Below, piece after piece: positions 22,151 through 39,559 of a stretch of 55,314 nt of DNA. Position 1 is the first letter of the stretch; every line of letters begins with the position of its first letter. The stretch lies in contig CADCAK010000006.1 in the NCBI GenBank assembly GCA_902799385.1, positions 3,953-59,266 on the forward strand, given 5' to 3'. The notes beneath the pieces were generated by a model. That model did no database searches and was not told the DNA's origin. It saw only the letters and a program-made list of their open reading frames with translations. The stretch comes from an uncultured bacterium (GTDB taxonomy: Bacteria; Verrucomicrobiota; Kiritimatiellia; RFP12; UBA1067). Made by a program: the position numbers and the translations under genes.

Positions 22151-23638
22151 ATGAACGACATGAAGACGCCGCCACACAACATCGACGCCGAGCGGGCCGT
22201 GCTCGGCTCGATCTTGCTAGACACGACGGGGCGCGAAGAGCGCGTTATGGACGTCTGCCAATCGGCGGGCGTCGTCCCGGAGACTTTCTTCGATCCGCGC
22301 AACAGGGCGATATACGGGGAGATGACGGCCATGGCGCGCGCATCGAGGCCGCTCGATGCGCTGACGCTTGCCGAGGAGCTTTCGCGCGACGGGCGTCTTG
22401 ATGCCGTCGGCGGCGCCGCGTACGTCCAGTCGCTCATCGACCAGACTCCTACGACCGCCCACGCGGAGTACTACATCGGCATAATCCTCGCGAAGCAGCT
22501 GAGGCGCACGATGATCGACCGCGCGACGGCGACGATAGAGAAATGCTACGACGAGGGCGAGTACCCGGACGCGCAGGCCGTCCTCGGGGACGCGGAGAAG
22601 TCCTTCATCGAAATCGGGCTCAGGCGCGACTCGACGATGCCATGGGCTTCCGCCGTGGACGAAAGCTACAGGCACATCGACGCGATGTTCGACTCCAACG
22701 GAAGGTCGCTCGACGGCCTTGCGACGGGCCTCACGCACCTCGACGAGAAGCTTCAGGGGCTCAAGAACTCCGAAATGGTGGTCATCGCCGCCCGTCCGTC
22801 GGTCGGCAAGACGTCGCTCGCGATGAACATAGCCGAGAGCTGCGCGCTTGGGATGGACATGAACAACGTGCCGGTGAAGTCCGACGGCGGCAAGCGCCAT
22901 CCCGTGATGATCTTCTCGCTCGAAATGCCGATAGAGGCGTTGACGAGGCGAATGATCGCAGGGCGCGCGCACGTGAACATGTGGCGCCTCAATCGCGGCC
23001 TCTGCGCCAAGAGCGAGAAGCAGATGCTCATCTCGAACCTGTCCATAGCCGCCGAGGAGTTGAAGGGCGCGCCGATCTACGTGGACGACACGGCGGCGCT
23101 CGACGTGATGGACCTTCGCGCCCGCGCAAGGCGCGCGAAGAGGCAGCACGGCATAGAGCTGATCGTCATAGACTACCTGCAGCTGTGTACGTGCCGCGAG
23201 GCCGCGCGCATGGGAAGCCGCCAGATAGAGGTCTCGATGATATCCCAGCAGATAAAGGCGATGGCGAAGGAGCTGAAGATTCCGGTGATTGTCCTCTCCC
23301 AGCTTTCCCGCGCTAACGAGCAGCGCGGCGACAAGGAGGAGAAGCCGAAGCTTTCGGACCTCCGCGACTCGGGCGCGATCGAGCAGGACGCGGACGTGGT
23401 GTTTCTCCTCCGCCGCCCGTCGCGCACGACGACGTCGAAGGACGCCGGTGACGAGCAGCTCGCGATAATCGACGTCGCGAAGAACCGCAACGGCGAGACG
23501 GGCGAGGTGAAGGTCAACTTCTACCGCGAGTTCACGCGCTTTGGCGACCGCGAGATAGAGCGCACGGGCGTTGACGACTACAGGACTTCGGAGCCGCCGC
23601 CGGAGCAAGGCGAGTTCTCGCCCGATCCCATGATGTAG
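22151..23638 (+). CDS. dnaB: Replicative DNA helicase DnaB
   Basis: A 495-residue hexameric helicase. The N-terminal domain begins PPHNIDAERAVLGSILLD. A linker and a RecA-like core follow, with Walker A ARPSVGKTS near residue 215, FSLEMP, Walker B LIVIDYLQL, and SQLSRANEQRGDKE with LRDSGAIEQDADVV. It unwinds DNA ahead of the replication fork. Length and motifs are standard. A leaderless start is predicted from the -10 spacing. Confidence 0.96.
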   Translation: MNDMKTPPHNIDAERAVLGSILLDTTGREERVMDVCQSAGVVPETFFDPRNRAIYGEMTAMARASRPLDALTLAEELSRDGRLDAVGGAAYVQSLIDQTPTTAHAEYYIGIILAKQLRRTMIDRATATIEKCYDEGEYPDAQAVLGDAEKSFIEIGLRRDSTMPWASAVDESYRHIDAMFDSNGRSLDGLATGLTHLDEKLQGLKNSEMVVIAARPSVGKTSLAMNIAESCALGMDMNNVPVKSDGGKRHPVMIFSLEMPIEALTRRMIAGRAHVNMWRLNRGLCAKSEKQMLISNLSIAAEELKGAPIYVDDTAALDVMDLRARARRAKRQHGIELIVIDYLQLCTCREAARMGSRQIEVSMISQQIKAMAKELKIPVIVLSQLSRANEQRGDKEEKPKLSDLRDSGAIEQDADVVFLLRRPSRTTTSKDAGDEQLAIIDVAKNRNGETGEVKVNFYREFTRFGDREIERTGVDDYRTSEPPPEQGEFSPDPMM

Positions 23639-25940: not shown

Positions 25941-30736
<4,796 letters not shown>

Positions 30737-30814
30737 CTTTCCGTCGATCGCGCGCGGGGCTACTACGCCGAGTCCCGTCCGTCCCGGCTGCCCAATGAGT
30801 GCCGCGCTGTCAGG

Positions 30815-30839
30815 GGTAGCGCTACCTTTGGCGAAAGGT
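30815..30839. other. Adjacent hairpins downstream of beta-galactosidase
   Basis: GGTAGCGCTACC is a perfect 12-bp palindrome and is followed by ACCTTT-GGCG-AAAGGT, a 6-bp stem sharing ACC. They lie in the otherwise empty 30737-30909 interval. No T-run follows, so it is not a standard terminator. Confidence 0.5.
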
Positions 30840-30909
30840 CCGGGGACCATGGAGAAGGGGCGGTGCGGTGAGAAAAATTCATTTTGATACGGCATTGTCC
30901 GCGAAGATA

Positions 30910-30918
30910 TGATATAAT
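30910..30918 (+). promoter_or_regulatory. Extended -10 promoter for G-tract leader ORF, predicted leaderless
   Basis: TGA-TATAAT (hexamer 30913-30918), 7 bases (ACGCGGC), then ATG 30926. The core TATAATACGCG-R-CATGAC recurs at 40597-40613. Confidence 0.7.
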
Positions 30919-30925
30919 ACGCGGC

Positions 30926-31030
30926 ATGACCACCTATCTCCATCATCGCGACGGGAGAGGCGTCGCCGTTAATGCGCGTAGGACGCGCGTGGCGCGCGCC
31001 GTCGCTAGGATAGGGGGGGGGGGGCTCTAA
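30926..31030 (+). CDS. Leaderless short ORF with 12-G run (candidate leader peptide)
   Basis: A 34-codon ORF starting MTTYLHHRDGRGVAVN, rich in Arg (RRTRVARAVARI) and ending with four GGG codons then Leu-stop. The G run is 31013-31024, an exact 12-mer. In the present length translation stops at 31028-31030. If one G were lost, the frame would stay open to a TGA at 31227-31229 that overlaps the ATG of the next gene. If one G were gained, it would stay open to a TAA at 31198-31200. An attenuator-like hairpin lies within that extension. No database family is recognised. Coding status is supported by the promoter spacing only and is uncertain. Confidence 0.5.
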   Translation: MTTYLHHRDGRGVAVNARRTRVARAVARIGGGGL

Positions 31031-31081
31031 GCAGAGAACGCGCGTTAGCGGCTCTCCAAGCGGTCATATACGCGATTTCAG

Positions 31082-31120
31082 ACGACGGGTGGCATCCAAG
31101 GATGCTTCGCCCGTCGTTTT
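31082..31120 (+). terminator. Attenuator-like hairpin upstream of FAD/GH97 gene
   Basis: Outer stem ACGACGGG (31082-31089) / CCCGTCGT (31110-31117) and inner stem GCATCC / GGATGC are followed by TTTT and a T-rich stretch. It lies between the G-tract ORF and the start codon at 31226. Confidence 0.7.
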
Positions 31121-31210
31121 GCTTTCTTGTACATACAAATCTGAAAGCCATTTCTACTTTGTTGGAATCCGTCACCGTGCTGGAGGCGGACACAGTCTAA
31201 CAAGCAACTC

Positions 31211-31270
31211 AAAGGAACAACAAACATGAAGACACCAACAAAACGGGCGACGCGCCGTCTTGCTGCGTCA
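31211..31270. repeat. Ribosome-site/signal-peptide cassette, copy 1
   Basis: 60 bp, with about two differences from 34916-34975. It covers AAAGGAACAACAA, the start codon and the first 15 codons (MKTPTKRATRRLAAS). Confidence 0.95.
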
Positions 31271-34200
31271 GCTGCGCTTGCCATTTCCATGAGTTGTGCG
31301 TATTCCGCCGAGACGACGTGCGACATCGTTATCTACGGCTCAAGCCCCGCTGCGATTTCTGCGGCGGTGCAGGCGAAGCGCATGGGCAGGTCTGCCGTGA
31401 TCGTCTCGCCCGAGACGCGCATCGGCGGACTCACGACGGGCGGCCTCGGACAGACAGACATCGGCAACAAGTCCGCGTTTGGCGGCATTGCGCTCGAGTT
31501 CTACCGCGACATCGCCAAGTGGTACGCCGACCCAGCGCACTGGACACGCCAGACGTCTGCGGAATACCGTCCCAGCGGCCAGACCGCAGGCACCATGGGC
31601 GCGGACTCGATGTGGACGTTTGAGCCGTCCGCCGCGCTTGCGATTCTTGAAGTATGGGAGAAGCGCGACAAGCTCGACATCAGGCGCGGTGAATGGCTCG
31701 ACCGCGAGAAGGGCGTCGTGAAACAGGACGGACGCATTGTCACATTCAAGACTCTTTCCGGCAATGTCTATCGCGGCAAGGTCTTCATCGACGCGACCTA
31801 CGAAGGCGACCTAATGGCGGCGGCGGGCGTTTCCTACACCGTTGGACGCGAAGCGAACAGCGTCTACGGCGAGACAATCAGCGGTGTCCAGTTCCGCGAG
31901 GCGAAATTCCACCAACTGAAGTGGTACGTAAGCCCATACGTGGTGGAGGGTGATCCAAACAGCGGACTTCTCCCAGGAATCGAGCCGTTCAACCCGAACG
32001 AAAAGGACGGCGACGGCGACAAGCGCGTGCAGGCGTACAACTTCCGCATGTGCCTCACCGACGACCCGGAGAACCTCATTCCGTTCAAGAAGCCCGCGAA
32101 CTACGACGAGCGTGAATACGAGCTTCTCTTCCGCAACTTCGCGAAGGGCGAGTCAGCAATCCCGTGGATCAACTCGAAGATGCCGAACTGCAAGACCGAC
32201 ACGAATAACAAGTTGGGCTTCTCGACTGATTTCATCGGGCGCAACTACGAGTGGCCCGAGGCGACATACGAACGCCGCGCCGAAATCTTTAAGCAGCATC
32301 TCGACTATCAGCAGGGGCTAATGTGGACGCTTGCCAACCACGAGCGCATCCCTGAGAAGATCCGCAAAGAGGTGTCGCGCTGGGGAACTTGCAAGGACGA
32401 GTTCAAGGACGGCCCGGGCGACGGATGGCAGAGCCAGCTTTACGTCCGCGAGGCGCGGCGAATGGTCGGCGACTACGTGATGACCGAGCACGAGTGCCGC
32501 GGTGACCGCACAGCGCCGCATCCCGTCGCGATGGGCGCATACACGATGGACTCGCATAACGTCCGCCGCGTCGTCACGGAAAGGGGCAACACCAAGAACG
32601 AGGGCGATGTGGAGGATAGCCGCCGCTACAGCGCATGGGGGCCTGATGCTGCAAAGCGCGCCAAGGGCGGCAGGATGAAGCCCTACGGCATCGACTACGG
32701 CGCAATCACGCCGAAGCGCGGCGAATGCGCCAATCTGCTCGTGCCCGTCTGCCTCTCCGCCTCGCACATGGCCTTCGGCTCAATCCGCATGGAGCCGGTC
32801 TTCTTCGCGCTTGGACAGGCCGCCGGAACCGCCGCGTCGATGTCTGTCGCGAATGGCGCCGCCGTTCAGGATGTGCCCTACGCGGAACTGCGCGAGCGCC
32901 TCCTTGCCGACGGGCAGGTGGTAAGCCATGAAAAATCCGCATCGGCGCTCATCCCCGCGCCGCGAGAGATGACGCTTGTGAACTCTGCCGTTTCTCCCGA
33001 CGGGAAGAACGAGATGCGGCTTTATTCCAATCCACTCGCCTACGAGGTCATGCGTGATGGAGTTGTCGTTGTCGCCAAGACCGAAATCGGGCTTAAGATG
33101 AACGGCAAGTGCGTCAAGGAAGGAGTCACGAAACCTTGCGCCGTGTGCCCTGCGAAGTTCAGCGGCTTTGCGCCGACGTCGGTCTACAAGAAGGGCAAGC
33201 TCGATCTCTCGGGAAATGAAACTTTGATAGACTTTGGCGATTGGGCTGTTCGTCTCGCCGCGCGCAACGATGGCGTCGCCTACCGCTTCGAGACTAAGAA
33301 GTCGGGCATCGTAGACTGCGAGAAGGCAGACATAACGCTTCCAAAGGGCGCTCGCTGCTGGTTTAACCGCACAGTTCGCGGTACGCTCGGCTGCGAGGGG
33401 AAGATGCCCGAGTTTGCTGATGCGTCCGCACTCAAGACCGACGCCGGCAAGGCGATCTATCTCCCGTTCGTATACTCAACCGGGGTCAATGGCAAGACCG
33501 TCGCCGTCGTTGACGCCGATCTCCACGACTATCCGATCTGGAACTTTGGCGACATAGAGCAGACCGAGGGCGGCACAAAGATCAAGTCGCTCTTCGCCAA
33601 GTACCCTAAGACGACCGAGCGCGTCGGCGGCTGGGGCAAGAAACCGGAAGAAAAAGGCCTTGCGAAGGGCGGCCGCTGGGTGACGGTCAAGGAGACGGAG
33701 GACTTCATCGCCAAGGCCGATGCGCCGCGTGCGTTCCCCTGGCGCGCCTTCGCGCTCGCCGACGCGCCTTCCAAGCTTTGCGAGGCAGACATCTTCTATG
33801 CGCTCGCGACGCCTGCCGCGAAAGGCGCCGACTTCTCCTGGGTGAAGCCAGGCAAGGTCGCGTGGGACTGGTGGAGTAACTTTGACAACGGCAAGGGCTG
33901 CACGACCAAGACCTACGTCCGTTTCATCGACTTCGCCGCGAAGAACGGCGTCGAATACGTAATCTTCGACGAGGGCTGGAGCGCCAGGCTCGACATCTGG
34001 AGGTACAGCCCGAAAGTCGATGTTCCCTACCTTATCGACTATGCGAACAAGAAGGGCGTCGGGATCATCCTCTGGATGGCGTGGGCGCAGGTGTACGGCG
34101 AGGAAGAGAAAGTCGCCGAGCACTTCTCGAAGCTCGGCGCAAAGGGCTTCAAGGTGGACTTCATGGACCGCGGCGACGCGGAGATTGCGAACTTCATTGA

Positions 34201-34909
34201 GAAGTTCGCCGCTGCTTGCGCGAAGCACAGGATGCTCATCGACTACCACGGCTCGTATCGCCCTGTCGGCCTCCAGCGCACATACCCGAATGTCCTCACC
34301 TTCGAGGGCATCCACGGGCTTGAGCAGATGAAGTGGGGCAAGAAGGACAAGGACATGTGCTACAACGACGTCGCATGCTTCTTTATCCGCATGACCGCCG
34401 GCCCGATGGACTATACGCCCGGCGCGATGGACAACTACAAGATCGGCGACTACAGGGGCAACGGCACGAATCCCGGCTCGGTCGGGACGCGCTGCCACCA
34501 GATGGCGCTAATGGCGCTCTACGAGTCGCCGCTCCAGATGCTGAGCGACTCGCCGACGAAGTACGAGAAGAACATGGAGTGCTTCGCGTTCATGGCGAAG
34601 ACGCCCGTCGTCTGGGACGATACCATTGGCTTGGGCGGCTGCCCCGAGTCGTTCGCGGCGGTTGCAAGGAAGGCCAAGGACGGCTCGTGGTACGCGGCCG
34701 GAATCACGAACAAGGAAGCGTGCGACTTCGCGTTCAAGACATGCTTCTTGGGCGATGGCGAGTGGAAGGCCGAAATCTTCCGCGACGCGGACGATGCTGG
34801 CGAAAACCCGACGAAGTACATCCACGAGACGACGGCTGTCAAGGCAGGCGAAGAGCTCTCTTTCCACATGGCCTCGGGAGGTGGCTTCATCATCAAGTTC
34901 TCAAAGTAA
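31226..34909 (+). CDS. Secreted FAD-dependent oxidoreductase / GH97 glycosidase fusion
   Basis: A 1,227-residue protein. A Tat/Sec-like basic signal (MKTPTKRATRRLAASAALAI) is followed by a large FAD-dependent oxidoreductase domain, residues ~32-565: dinucleotide-binding IYGSSPAAISAAVQAKRMG, then RIGGLTTGGLGQTD, and a C-terminal FAD contact region near FALGQAAGTAASM. Residues ~580-1227 match family GH97: an N-terminal beta domain, VAWDWWSNFDNG, VEYVIFDEGWS, candidate retaining nucleophile Asp978 in FKVDFMDRGD, and TAGPMDYTPGAM. GH97 enzymes are alpha-glucosidases or alpha-galactosidases; an Asp here fits the retaining alpha-galactosidase type. The oxidoreductase partner is rarely linked to GH97 as far as I know, and its substrate is unknown. 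Confidence 0.87.
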   Translation: MKTPTKRATRRLAASAALAISMSCAYSAETTCDIVIYGSSPAAISAAVQAKRMGRSAVIVSPETRIGGLTTGGLGQTDIGNKSAFGGIALEFYRDIAKWYADPAHWTRQTSAEYRPSGQTAGTMGADSMWTFEPSAALAILEVWEKRDKLDIRRGEWLDREKGVVKQDGRIVTFKTLSGNVYRGKVFIDATYEGDLMAAAGVSYTVGREANSVYGETISGVQFREAKFHQLKWYVSPYVVEGDPNSGLLPGIEPFNPNEKDGDGDKRVQAYNFRMCLTDDPENLIPFKKPANYDEREYELLFRNFAKGESAIPWINSKMPNCKTDTNNKLGFSTDFIGRNYEWPEATYERRAEIFKQHLDYQQGLMWTLANHERIPEKIRKEVSRWGTCKDEFKDGPGDGWQSQLYVREARRMVGDYVMTEHECRGDRTAPHPVAMGAYTMDSHNVRRVVTERGNTKNEGDVEDSRRYSAWGPDAAKRAKGGRMKPYGIDYGAITPKRGECANLLVPVCLSASHMAFGSIRMEPVFFALGQAAGTAASMSVANGAAVQDVPYAELRERLLADGQVVSHEKSASALIPAPREMTLVNSAVSPDGKNEMRLYSNPLAYEVMRDGVVVVAKTEIGLKMNGKCVKEGVTKPCAVCPAKFSGFAPTSVYKKGKLDLSGNETLIDFGDWAVRLAARNDGVAYRFETKKSGIVDCEKADITLPKGARCWFNRTVRGTLGCEGKMPEFADASALKTDAGKAIYLPFVYSTGVNGKTVAVVDADLHDYPIWNFGDIEQTEGGTKIKSLFAKYPKTTERVGGWGKKPEEKGLAKGGRWVTVKETEDFIAKADAPRAFPWRAFALADAPSKLCEADIFYALATPAAKGADFSWVKPGKVAWDWWSNFDNGKGCTTKTYVRFIDFAAKNGVEYVIFDEGWSARLDIWRYSPKVDVPYLIDYANKKGVGIILWMAWAQVYGEEEKVAEHFSKLGAKGFKVDFMDRGDAEIANFIEKFAAACAKHRMLIDYHGSYRPVGLQRTYPNVLTFEGIHGLEQMKWGKKDKDMCYNDVACFFIRMTAGPMDYTPGAMDNYKIGDYRGNGTNPGSVGTRCHQMALMALYESPLQMLSDSPTKYEKNMECFAFMAKTPVVWDDTIGLGGCPESFAAVARKAKDGSWYAAGITNKEACDFAFKTCFLGDGEWKAEIFRDADDAGENPTKYIHETTAVKAGEELSFHMASGGGFIIKFSK

Positions 34910-34915
34910 CATGAA

Positions 34916-34975
34916 AAAGGAACAACAACCATGAAAACACCAACAAAACGGGCGACGCGCCGTCTTGCTGCGTCA
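34916..34975. repeat. Ribosome-site/signal-peptide cassette, copy 2
   Basis: Second copy of the 60-bp module described at 31211-31270. The downstream coding sequence is unrelated to that of copy 1. Confidence 0.95.
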
Positions 34976-37900
34976 ATCGCAATCGCCACTGCACTGGCAG
35001 CGTCCAGCACATGGGCGGGGGATCGCACAATCAGCGAGAACTACACGCTGACAGACTACGAGACTGTCGATGGCGTTCTCACAGTCGCGAGCGGTGTGAC
35101 GGTCGATCTCAAGGGATACCACCTCACAGTGCAGGGACTTGCCGGAGACGGTACGATCACCAACAGCGCGAACTACAGTTCCGACCTGACTTCGCCGGAT
35201 ACGACCCAGACGCATGTGACGTGGGTTACGAAATTCGGCACTGGCAACGATGTCGCCAACGGCAACCTCAGGGACAACACCACCACGCCGCGCAATCTTT
35301 TCAACGACTCCGAGCTGGTTGCAGAAACGAATGACAACGACAAGAGAATACTTGTTGAGAAAGCAAATCTGCCGCTTGCAGTTACATACGACTTCGGCGA
35401 GGGCGAGCAAAAGAAAGTCGGCAAGTACAGATTGTATATGACACGTAACAGCACAAAGACCAAATACTATAGCAGAGGGCCGAAGGCGTGGACGTTTGAG
35501 GGGTCGAACGACAATGCAACATGGACATCGCTCGATTCAAAGTCCGACATTACATGGGCGGCATACAATGCCAGTTCCAATCCATATAAAGAAGAATACG
35601 TTATCGGCAACGAAGCTTCGTACCGTTACTATCGCATCACATTCACGTCGTCGAACGACGGCTCTTTTTTGGAACTGAACCGCCTGGAATACTTCTCTTC
35701 CCCAGAACTGCACGTTGCGGTTGCAGCGGGCGAATCCGTCACTAACTCCACTGTCGCCATCGCGGGCAGCGTCAAGGTCGTGAAGGATGGCGAGGGCGAG
35801 TTTGCAATGGCGAAGGACGAGACCTACACTGGCGGCACCGTTCTTGCGGAGGGAACGCTTGCGCTCACCGGCACGGTGGGTTCGTTCGACTGGTCGAAGT
35901 TCACGTTCGGCACGGACGCGTCGAAGCCCGTTACCCTGCGTGTCGGCGAAGGCGCAACGCTCTCCCCAAGTGCCACGATGTCGATTGGCACCGTCGCCGG
36001 CTGCTCTTCCAAGCTCGTCGTGGACGGCGGCACGGTAAGCGCGGCCGCCATGCATATCGGCGAGAGTTCTGGCAGTGTCGGCCTTGTTGAGGTCAACGGC
36101 GGAACCTTGAGTGTTCCAAACGATATCTATATGGGCTTCGCTGACAACTCCACGGCAACACTGACGATAAATGGGGGCACGGTCGAAGTCGGTTCCAGCT
36201 ACCAGTTGTTTTCTGCTAATGCAAGCGGCAGCCATGGCACGATAAACCTCAACGGTGGCATCCTTATGACGAGACGTATTGCCCATTACAGGGGGAGCTG
36301 CACCATCAATTTCAACGGCGGAACGCTTCAGGCGAATGCCGGAAATGCAGATTTCATCAAGAGCGGCACTACGGTCAATGTCGGCGCGGACGGCGGCACG
36401 ATCGACAGTGGCAATTTCGCAGTCTTGGCCAATGCGCCCATCGTCGGCACTGGCGCGATGACGTTCAAGGGCGGCGGTTCAATTACGCTCGGCGACGTAC
36501 CGGCATATACCGGTGGAACGGTTGTCGAGGCGGGAACGACTCTCAAACTCTCGGCGGCGGCTATGACTGCGCTTGCAGCCAATCCTGTTGCGATGAACAT
36601 TCCCGTCGGCGGCGCTGCGGACGGCACTGTGGTGTTTGAAGTGACGGACAGCGACACGTTCACCCAAGCCGAGGTCGATGCAATGGGCGTCACGGGGACA
36701 GATGCGAGCCGCTACGCTCTTGCGCTTGCCGAGGGCGGCACGAAGGTCGTAGTTGTCGATACGTATGCTGGCGAATACGTGTGGAACGGCGGCTCGTCCG
36801 GCGCATCGTGGAAGGCCTCAGGCAACTGGTCGAAGAATGGCGCACCCGGCAACTGGTACGACTCCACGCGGGCGGTCTTCGAGCATGACGGCGACGCGGC
36901 ATCGGTCGATTCTGCCGTCACGGCGGCTTCCGTCACGTTCCGCGCCGATGCAACCGTCTCCGGCTCTGCGGCACTGGCCGCCTCCGAGATTGTCGTGTCG
37001 AACGGCGTTTCGGCGACTGTCTCCGCGCCCACGGCCGGCGTGATTGAAAAGACTGGGCCAGGCACTCTGACGCTTTCGCAAGACCGTACGGATGCGGCGA
37101 CTACGCTTTCCGAAGGAACGCTTGCGCTTGCGGGCACGGCTGCGCTCGACTGGTCGAAGTTTACGTTCGGAACGGACGCGTCGAAGCCCGTCACGCTGCG
37201 AATCGGCGAAACTGCAACGCTCGCCAACATCCCAAGCGGTGAAAACGAGTGGCATCTCGGGACCGTGGCGACTTCCACCGTGTACAAGGCCGGGGGCGAC
37301 TGGAGTCTCTCCGGCAGCAAATTCTCCCTTGGCGCACCTGGTGCACTTGCATCGTTCTACCACGAAGGCGGCACGATCACGACGGCAAGCCGGTTTGCCA
37401 TAGGCGACGCTTTAGGTCGCGGCTACTTTGAAATCAGCGGAGGAACCATCAAGACGACAGGTGGCGATACAGGCAGAAGGACGTTGATTGGCAACACTGC
37501 GGAAGGAACGATGGTTGTCAAGAGCGGTGGCAACCTTGTTGTCGAGAACAATGGTCTGTTCGTAGGTGTCAGTCAGGGAGGCGTCGGCGTTCTGACCGTC
37601 GATAACGGCGGCACGGTCTCGGTGGCCAGTTCGGTTGTATTCAACCTCAATAGCGCCGATTCCTCCGGCACTGTCAATCTCAAGAGCGGCGGCGTTTTGT
37701 CCGCCCATAGAATGTATCGTAACATAGACGGATTGGCGACGTTCAACTTCGACGGTGGCACGCTTGTCATCACCGGCAACAACGCGGCTGACAAGCTCTT
37801 TTCAAAACAGGACGGTAGCGGCGTGGTGACGGTCACGGTGAGCGAGAACGGCGGCACGATCGACAACGGCGGCAATGCAAACAGCTCGGCGATTGCCAAT

Positions 37901-39559
37901 ACGATCACGGGCGCGGGCGGCTTGACGTTCACCGGCACCGGCACGACGAGGGTGTTCGCCGACCAGTCGTATCTCGGCACGACCACAGTCTCGAGCGGCA
38001 CGACGCTTTCCGTCACCACTGTCACCTTCGCGGGGCCGGTGGCGTTTGCGGCTGGCTCGATATTGAATGTTGCTGCGTATACTGCCGGCGTTGTGCCGCT
38101 CTCGGCAAGTGTACTGACGCTTCCGGCGGAAGGCACGGTCGGCCTCACGCTGAACGGCGGCGCGTTCCCTGTTGGTGTTTACTCCATCTGCTCCGTGGCA
38201 GGCGTGACGGCGGCGGACGGCGCGAAGTTCGCGCCCTCCACCGGTTGTGAAACGGCAAGCTGGAAGGTTGTCGGCGACACGCTGGTTCTCACGGTCGGCA
38301 CGGTTGCGGACAACTACTGGACGGGATTTGCAGGAGACGGCAAGATGTCCACGCCCGGCAACTGGGCGGGCGGTACCGCTCCAACAGACGGCGAGGATGT
38401 CGATTTCTCCAGTGTGACGGTAACGACGAGGATCAACGCCGACATTGCAAACGCCACGTTCGGCGCCGTGACGATGGGGTCGGGGCCTGTCATCTTCACG
38501 AACGACAACATGAAGGCGACGTCGTTCAGCGATCTGGAAAAGGTCGCGGTCGCTGAAAACTCCACCGTCACGCTCGATGGCGACCTCGTGTTCGGCATGG
38601 ACGTTGAGTCCCACGTCTGCAGATATGTCTTTGAAGGCGGAAAATTCGTTGTCACCGGAAAGATCATTGCAACGCCCGAACAGACGGGAAATCTCTATCC
38701 GTGCGAGAACGCGCCAGGCTGGATTTCGGCCAAGGGGCTTGTCAATAACGCAGCCGCCAACAACTTCTACCTTGTTCAAGCGCAAAATTGGCAGGCAAAT
38801 TGGATGATCGGGGAAGACGGCATTTCCGGGTCGCGGAGATTTTTCGTCGGGAGTTCTGGCAAAGGCACCGCGACAATCAAGGCGACGGCGGATTTCTCCG
38901 TCTCCGCCGGCATCATCCAGTACAACAACCTCGTGCTCGAGCCTGACGGGCATAAAATCACGCTCGGCACGAACGTGACCGTCTTTGCGGGTGGCATCTA
39001 CGGCGGCGGCGCGAACGGCTTGACGACCGTAAAAGGCCCCGGCAAGGTTGTCGTCAACTACAACGTAACCGATCTCACGTCTAACGCCAATTCGCTAAAG
39101 AATGCGTTTAGGGTCGCCGACGGCGGAACGCTCGCCATCGTCCCCGGCGCCAATCCCAGCGTCAGCACCGACAACAACGGCACGCTCACGGTCAATTCCG
39201 GCGCGACGCTTGAAGTTGCAGAATCCGGCACGGTCGCGCCCGGCGGCAACCTTACGCTTGCCGACGGCGCGGCGCTCGCGTTCAACTTCACGGAGAATAA
39301 GGTGGCGCCGGTGCTGGACGTGACGGGCAAGACTGTAACGGTGGCTGGTACGGTGAATGTCAAAATAGCGGCGGCATCTGGCATCCGGCCTGTCACTGCG
39401 GGCGGCAAGTTCACGTTGACCTCCGGCGGCAAGTTCGCTGGTGTGACAGTTTCACTTGATGAAACCAACAAGCCTGATTGGGCACTGGGTGTTTCGGTCG
39501 AGAACGGCAACGTCGTCCTCGACGTCAGGCCGCTGGGCACGATATTCCTCATCAAGTAA
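34931..39559 (+). CDS. Giant secreted beta-helix (passenger-like) protein with discoidin-like domain
   Basis: A 1,542-residue protein. Its first 15 residues equal those of the upstream gene, and a signal cleavage near AASSTWAG is likely. Residues ~75-260 resemble an F5/8-C discoidin-like carbohydrate-binding domain (AVTYDFGEGEQ, KYRLYMTRNS, WTFEGSNDNATWTSLDS, YYRITFTS). The rest is rich in Gly, Thr and Val with autotransporter-passenger-like repeats, for example TYTGGTVLAEGTLAL and GTTTVSSGTTLSV. A block DWSKFTFGTDASKP is present twice, 420 residues apart. No C-terminal outer-membrane barrel, PEP-CTERM or LPXTG-type signal is visible (it ends RPLGTIFLIK). Only 21 bases separate it from the FAD/GH97 gene, so they are likely co-transcribed. 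It may be an adhesin or glycan-binding surface layer. Confidence 0.75.
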   Translation: MKTPTKRATRRLAASIAIATALAASSTWAGDRTISENYTLTDYETVDGVLTVASGVTVDLKGYHLTVQGLAGDGTITNSANYSSDLTSPDTTQTHVTWVTKFGTGNDVANGNLRDNTTTPRNLFNDSELVAETNDNDKRILVEKANLPLAVTYDFGEGEQKKVGKYRLYMTRNSTKTKYYSRGPKAWTFEGSNDNATWTSLDSKSDITWAAYNASSNPYKEEYVIGNEASYRYYRITFTSSNDGSFLELNRLEYFSSPELHVAVAAGESVTNSTVAIAGSVKVVKDGEGEFAMAKDETYTGGTVLAEGTLALTGTVGSFDWSKFTFGTDASKPVTLRVGEGATLSPSATMSIGTVAGCSSKLVVDGGTVSAAAMHIGESSGSVGLVEVNGGTLSVPNDIYMGFADNSTATLTINGGTVEVGSSYQLFSANASGSHGTINLNGGILMTRRIAHYRGSCTINFNGGTLQANAGNADFIKSGTTVNVGADGGTIDSGNFAVLANAPIVGTGAMTFKGGGSITLGDVPAYTGGTVVEAGTTLKLSAAAMTALAANPVAMNIPVGGAADGTVVFEVTDSDTFTQAEVDAMGVTGTDASRYALALAEGGTKVVVVDTYAGEYVWNGGSSGASWKASGNWSKNGAPGNWYDSTRAVFEHDGDAASVDSAVTAASVTFRADATVSGSAALAASEIVVSNGVSATVSAPTAGVIEKTGPGTLTLSQDRTDAATTLSEGTLALAGTAALDWSKFTFGTDASKPVTLRIGETATLANIPSGENEWHLGTVATSTVYKAGGDWSLSGSKFSLGAPGALASFYHEGGTITTASRFAIGDALGRGYFEISGGTIKTTGGDTGRRTLIGNTAEGTMVVKSGGNLVVENNGLFVGVSQGGVGVLTVDNGGTVSVASSVVFNLNSADSSGTVNLKSGGVLSAHRMYRNIDGLATFNFDGGTLVITGNNAADKLFSKQDGSGVVTVTVSENGGTIDNGGNANSSAIANTITGAGGLTFTGTGTTRVFADQSYLGTTTVSSGTTLSVTTVTFAGPVAFAAGSILNVAAYTAGVVPLSASVLTLPAEGTVGLTLNGGAFPVGVYSICSVAGVTAADGAKFAPSTGCETASWKVVGDTLVLTVGTVADNYWTGFAGDGKMSTPGNWAGGTAPTDGEDVDFSSVTVTTRINADIANATFGAVTMGSGPVIFTNDNMKATSFSDLEKVAVAENSTVTLDGDLVFGMDVESHVCRYVFEGGKFVVTGKIIATPEQTGNLYPCENAPGWISAKGLVNNAAANNFYLVQAQNWQANWMIGEDGISGSRRFFVGSSGKGTATIKATADFSVSAGIIQYNNLVLEPDGHKITLGTNVTVFAGGIYGGGANGLTTVKGPGKVVVNYNVTDLTSNANSLKNAFRVADGGTLAIVPGANPSVSTDNNGTLTVNSGATLEVAESGTVAPGGNLTLADGAALAFNFTENKVAPVLDVTGKTVTVAGTVNVKIAAASGIRPVTAGGKFTLTSGGKFAGVTVSLDETNKPDWALGVSVENGNVVLDVRPLGTIFLIK

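Follow-up and report, generated by a model that had tools for sequence, protein, structure and literature searches.

Within the window, by which we mean the whole analysed stretch of 55,314 nucleotides, a 34-codon leader ORF that runs into twelve consecutive G residues precedes a gene for a predicted secreted protein with FAD_oxidored and GH97 domains. We favour, on balance, the interpretation that this is a phase-variable 5' module, in which slippage of the tract in the upstream ORF would set downstream expression by way of a hairpin. The G-run is more than a product of chance, and two components of the proposal, the slippage-prone nature of such tracts and the translation of the leader, are well supported by comparison of copies and relatives. 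More broadly, a genus-wide family of slippage-prone fronts probably switches secreted proteins on and off at random. Contigs of the genome are designated by C-numbers, with the window copy on C6, and genomes by G-numbers; 61 genomes of the genus were scanned. The features of the locus are as follows.

30873-31270, + strand: whole 5' module, comprising promoter, leader ORF, G-tract, hairpin, ribosome-binding site, start codon and first 15 signal-peptide codons
30910-30918, + strand: extended -10 promoter element TGATATAAT, from sequence; the TATAAT-7 nt-RTG arrangement recurs in the family and elsewhere
30926-31030, + strand: predicted leaderless leader ORF, in the G12 state MTTYLHHRDGRGVAVNARRTRVARAVARIGGGGL followed by a stop; homologous to leaders of other species, N/S 0.21 in frame
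31013-31024, + strand: G12 homopolymer tract, from sequence, the proposed slippage site; lengths differ between copies
31025-31229, + strand: continuation frame with one G fewer, 67 codons, its TGA at 31227-31229 overlapping the next ATG
31025-31200, + strand: continuation frame with one G more, 57 codons, beginning LSRERALAALQAVIYAIS, its stop 25 nt before the ATG
31080-31119, + strand: terminator-like hairpin, from folding, then GCTTTC (last stem bases TTT)
31211-31216, + strand: ribosome-binding-like AAAGGA upstream of the next ATG, from sequence
31226-34909, + strand: downstream gene with signal peptide, FAD_oxidored and GH97 (1227 aa), from Pfam
34931-39559, + strand: second gene, a secreted protein with PATR (autotransporter passenger repeat), 1542 aa, from Pfam

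Leader, tract and hairpin at the window locus

The extended -10 element, the ATG 7 nt on, the 34-codon ORF, the exact G12 and the next start at 31226, all reported in a first-pass annotation of this DNA, match the sequence base for base. By direct sequence reading a gap of 7 nt separates TGATATAAT from the leader ATG (30926-30928), the distance from ATG to tract is 87 nt, the tract forms codons 30-33, and CTC TAA at 31025-31030 closes the G12 frame after 34 codons plus the stop. The three-frame arithmetic given earlier (stops at 31030, 31227-31229 and 31200) is also correct, with one codon following the tract in the G12 state, 67 in G11 and 57 in G13. A change in length thus alters the reading frame with a different outcome each time, a property of simple-sequence-repeat contingency loci that this locus shares, along with an overlong homopolymer at the 5' end of a gene or leader.

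Coding constraint and start context suggest that the leader is probably translated from its leaderless start. The leader ORF has a third-position bias in the G-tract copies on C6, C77 and C64, which among them have 12 synonymous versus 7 nonsynonymous pairwise differences in the leader frame (N/S 0.21), against N/S of 1.1 and 3.1 in the other two frames; this signal rests on few changes, as it is weaker when all seven MTT-type copies are compared (0.76 in the leader frame versus 0.55 and 1.21 in the others). Leaderless mRNAs appear to be common in the lineage, since RTG follows at exactly 7 nt at 5 of the 18 TATAAT sites in the window and the same 7-nt TATAAT-RTG spike is seen at loci picked for their tracts (15/83). 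Genes begin exactly 7 nt after TATAAT at window positions 22151 (+), 42058 (+) and 18692 (-), the first presumably dnaB-like and the second cysS-like, names that we take from the protein starts.

The only codon run in the leader is Gly4, which derives from the G-tract (the runs in homologous leaders are of Pro), and no regulatory codon run for a pathway product, the mark of a leader-peptide attenuator, was found in it. A search of 30700-31300 against Rfam returned nothing credible. The NARR-RV codons (window 30970-30992) contain an inverted repeat, GCGCGT/ACGCGC, present in most leaders, and no compensatory changes were found across leaders in the hairpin predicted for the NARRMRV codons.

Between leader and gene, the terminator-like hairpin previously placed at 31082-31120 is present and its bounds are refined to 31080-31119 (-27 kcal/mol, z -4.8), but its tail (TTTTGCTTTC) offers a short T-run rather than a long one, and a scan for consensus terminators did not call it. 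The copies on C77 and C64 retain the hairpin structure with changed loop bases. The short T-run counts against a switch, and so do two further observations: most other leaders have no clear comparable hairpin, and the FAD/GH97 gene has a ribosome-binding-like site of its own.

Homopolymer tracts and leaders in the genome and genus

The dinucleotide statistics of the window itself lead one to expect 2.5 G/C runs of at least 10, and 0.14 of at least 12, in the 2.7-Mb genome. We observed 15 runs of at least 10, of which 14 are credible once a 25-G run at the contig end of C67, a likely artefact, is set aside, and 10 of these reach at least 12. All 14 sit at the 5' ends of genes predicted to encode secreted proteins, 'secreted' here denoting signal-peptide-like N-termini judged by eye rather than by a predictor (C49 is the least certain). 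The tracts lie in leaders before secreted-protein genes (C6, C8, C64, C68, C74, C77, and leader-like on C28 and C49), among the opening codons ahead of a signal peptide (C10, C20, C24, a second tract on C64, C91) or, on C1, 5 nt upstream of the start codon. The excess of runs of at least 12 over expectation, together with five copies of the tract on five contigs and homologous tracts in other species, makes it very improbable that the window tract is a sequence accident or assembly artefact, that is, a chance intergenic G-run, even though the contig-end run on C67 does resemble an artefact.

With respect to those copies, positions 30873-31270 are 97% identical to C77:2798-3195 and 30925-31270 are 95% identical to a stretch of C64, and partial copies around or behind the tract share 152 bp (C68) and 70 bp (C74). 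Tract lengths are G12 on C6, C77 and C68, G13 on C74 and G14 on C64. The genes behind the copies differ (FAD/GH97, PATR-type and large secreted-type proteins), and identity between copies stops inside signal-peptide codons. Combined with a 60-bp stretch at the start of the second gene (34916-34975) that repeats the start region of the FAD/GH97 gene at 97%, this end point indicates that promoter, leader, tract, hairpin, ribosome-binding site and signal-peptide start have been copied together. The DNA immediately upstream of the promoter (window 30745-30870) is itself a dispersed repeat with matches at C64:2653-2777, C10 and C56. FAD_oxidored and GH97 form one protein in the window and are mostly separate in relatives, a gene fusion whose separate close homologues (86-87%) lie at C2 and C19 of the same genome. 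We rejected the idea that the leader is tied to FAD/GH97, as the upstream DNA of two FAD orthologues that we inspected contained no such leader.

Beyond this genome, the pattern TATAAT-7 nt-RTG-65 to 95 nt-C9 has matches in 5 of the 61 genus genomes and none in the reversed control. The leaders in G018, G030, G063 and on C8 of the same genome as the window read V/M-x-x-T-F-H-S-I-x-x-N-A-R-R-M-R-V-E and align with the window leader, which differs from this poly-C type by a 15-nt in-frame insertion; the fifth match, in G033, has a different sequence. Searching with a leader model recovered further copies in G004, G028, G063 and G081, and also a match in G122, which belongs to another genus. Across the family the tract is mostly poly-C, with poly-G in the window lineage and G018 C130. 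The occurrence of G- and C-tracts alike favours slippage over an explanation by an RNA G-quadruplex or by one specific amino acid, and a G-quadruplex as the common function was rejected on account of the C-runs in the mRNA of homologous leaders. The peptide LSRERALAALQAVIYAIS of the G13 frame aligns with post-tract peptides of other leaders (RAVGGLCPAIRAIS, SVCGLYAALQRVLAA, RADGLCAAIQCVLAAS), and in G030 C92 the N-half, tract and C-half share one frame that leads into a hydrophobic segment and a longer secreted-type protein, cut by the contig end. On the simplest history suggested by these alignments, the leader began as the N-terminal part of a secreted, phase-variable gene from which it has since been separated.

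Parts of the leader recur in other settings. L225 (G122) and L141 (G063) have near-identical post-tract modules before different secreted-type proteins, the result of either recent transfer or a misbinned contig. Scanning IMG/VR for the module gave no match, and a wider contig scan gave one, RUG11810, with a G-tract, a similar post-tract motif and an unrelated upstream ORF. At L013:1-741 (-), L012 ~2290 (-) and L011 ~4515 (-), PDDEXK_2 (Rpn-type) genes carry the leader N-half as an in-frame fusion that lacks a tract; by contig, genes of the PDDEXK_2 type share the N-half at C56 and partially at C10 and C68. The leaders on C64 and C68 sit directly behind the ends of PDDEXK_2-type genes; downstream of the leader in the window, no PDDEXK_2 or Rpn nuclease domain was found. 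We tentatively raise the possibility of a transferable phase-variable module in which leaderless ORF, homopolymer, hairpin and signal-peptide start travel jointly from one secreted-protein gene to another, both inside a genus and across genera, perhaps helped by the adjoining Rpn-type nuclease genes. Each copy would then turn its own passenger on or off, independently of the others, by way of the upstream-ORF frame.

Instability of such tracts is suggested by length differences between near-identical sequences. A G9 tract shortly behind an SD-ATG is found in 19 of the 61 genus genomes, with fewer matches in the reversed control. Near-identical gene fronts carry G9 versus G11 (G015 C81/C104 versus G015 C82 and G033 C100), G10 and G11 (G008 C87, G064 C35), and G9 and G11 (G008 C134, G068 C52). 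The first of these sets is a repeated front of SD, ATG and G-tract present in two species. Among tracts of at least 11 in relatives, 24 of 68 have an assembly N-gap within 80 nt, a weak sign of instability since poly-G is also hard to sequence. The earlier proposal of tract slippage is supported insofar as the tract is of an unstable kind, with near-identical copies and fronts that differ in length; attenuation and an effect on FAD/GH97 are the inferred part of it.

Slippage might instead take place during transcription or translation, in which case a fixed G12 would yield mRNAs or frames of mixed kinds and the leader would act as a constant throttle and not as a heritable switch. Long homopolymer runs do provoke polymerase slippage, and the DNA length differences come from copies and relatives rather than from 31013-31024. 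We nevertheless consider this improbable, given that lengths differ at the DNA level among near-identical copies here and in relatives, and that the N-gaps near tracts are what mixed lengths would produce, with the same reservation about sequencing poly-G.

Proposed switch and constraint on its frames

We posit that slipped-strand mispairing at replication would add Gs to the tract or remove them. In the G12 state ribosomes would terminate at 31030, 50 nt short of the hairpin, which could then form and end transcription, and with no ribosome arriving at the next start the FAD/GH97 and PATR genes would be down. After loss of a G, ribosomes would cross and melt the hairpin and end on the FAD/GH97 start, and after gain of a G they would cross it and end 25 nt before that start; with ribosomes across the hairpin, initiation may be coupled and both genes up. 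The leader would have descended from the N-terminus of phase-variable secreted proteins, and the module, with its first signal-peptide codons, would have been copied before several unrelated genes. The steps that we infer are thus that the window tract slips, that transcription ends at the hairpin, that initiation is coupled through the ATGA and that expression changes at all, and the leader's control of the FAD/GH97 gene belongs with them.

The frames behind the tract bear on this proposal. The G11 continuation frame is open on C6, C77 and C64, and on C68, where the DNA at the junction to the gene is different, it likewise ends on ATGA. The G13 frame, which is that of the family and the current frame of the C64 copy, is shut by TAA after 10 codons on C77, C68 and C74. 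The claim that two of three tract lengths carry ribosomes across the hairpin thus holds at the window but not at C77 and C68, where this TAA leaves one length in three. The ATGA overlap is a mechanical outcome when an open frame meets a gene starting with MK (P ~0.3). Taken alone, the open frames that reach the next start do not exceed chance, as 29-37% of dinucleotide shuffles of the interval have one, and we rejected the overlap alone as evidence because 29% of shuffles reach it here.

Two comparisons across loci speak for a role of the frame. At 10 of 12 loci some frame comes to within 35 nt of the next start, with about 6 expected from summed per-locus shuffles. In four leaders with interrupted tracts, which are less prone to slippage (G063 C139, G004 C14, G004 C65, G081 C10), the present frame in every case reaches or enters the next gene, compared with 2 of the 10 evaluable leaders with uninterrupted tracts (hypergeometric 0.015, copies not independent); two acceptable frames exist at 2 of the 4 interrupted loci. 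Against such a role, no frame-specific constraint was detected in the post-tract frames, with N/S of 0.55-0.57 in all three.

The main rival to a leader switch driven by DNA slippage regards the leader as a relic. The N-terminus of a phase-variable secreted gene, now decayed, would have travelled with the promoter, ribosome-binding site and signal-peptide start as these were duplicated in front of new genes; its tract would still slip, but the new genes would use their own ribosome-binding sites and not respond. We accord this a real but minor likelihood. The TAA in the family frame on C77, C68 and C74 fits decay and counts against a switch, and the undetectable frame-specific constraint after the tract, open frames that are no rarer than in shuffles and the two FAD orthologues that lack the leader point the same way. 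Decay is harder to reconcile with constraint on the translated N-half (N/S 0.21), with five copies that keep uninterrupted tracts of 12-14, with a hairpin between leader and gene with which the downstream genes must cope, and with interrupted tracts elsewhere that are all fixed in the connecting frame.

If the leader does act as a switch, an uncultured gut-type genus would control glycan enzymes and autotransporter-like proteins by many homopolymer switches, a subset of which would act through upstream ORFs rather than within the regulated gene. Simple-sequence phase variation would thereby come to include action at a distance in leaderless mRNAs, and the clonal heterogeneity of carbohydrate use could be accounted for in this way. 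The switch predicts mixtures of tract lengths at the named sites in existing metagenome reads.

Relation to known switches and attenuators

The first-pass annotation knew of no described system with such a layout. None was found in our literature search either, in that open-licence literature on phase variation, leader peptides, premature termination and Kiritimatiellae/Verrucomicrobia yielded no leaderless upstream-ORF switch before a hairpin on a module common to unrelated genes; contingency loci, however, are common in the genus, and on the sequence comparisons above the layout is a derived form of these homopolymer loci.

Several known systems share parts of the proposed arrangement. The meningococcal capsule polymerase gene siaD combines poly-C switching with premature, Rho-dependent transcription termination, the tract lying inside the regulated gene. 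Slippage, an early translation stop and loss of the transcript would be common to both, whereas the present tract belongs to a leader that precedes a hairpin of the intrinsic type. Leader-peptide attenuators of the trp/tna type consist of a translated leader, a terminator-like hairpin and structural genes behind, the same layout as the predicted translated leader, hairpin and genes here; the present leader differs in having no regulatory codon run, and it would respond to tract length, which changes at random and heritably, and not to a metabolite.

The flagellar switch of Clostridioides difficile reportedly has a link to Rho. It resembles the present case in phase variation upstream of genes, with premature termination discussed, and differs in that DNA inversion operates there and homopolymer slippage with a translated leader would operate here (PMC5386303). 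A further parallel is offered by the poly-G/poly-C contingency loci of Campylobacter and Neisseria, whose phasomes have been surveyed (PMC6321876, PMC5953494). These loci likewise have long homopolymers in surface- or secreted-protein genes, a reading frame that decides between on and off, and many loci per genome. The window locus departs from them in that its tract is part of a distinct leaderless ORF, upstream of the gene on which the frame is proposed to act across a hairpin, and in that the module is copied between genes in an uncultured lineage.
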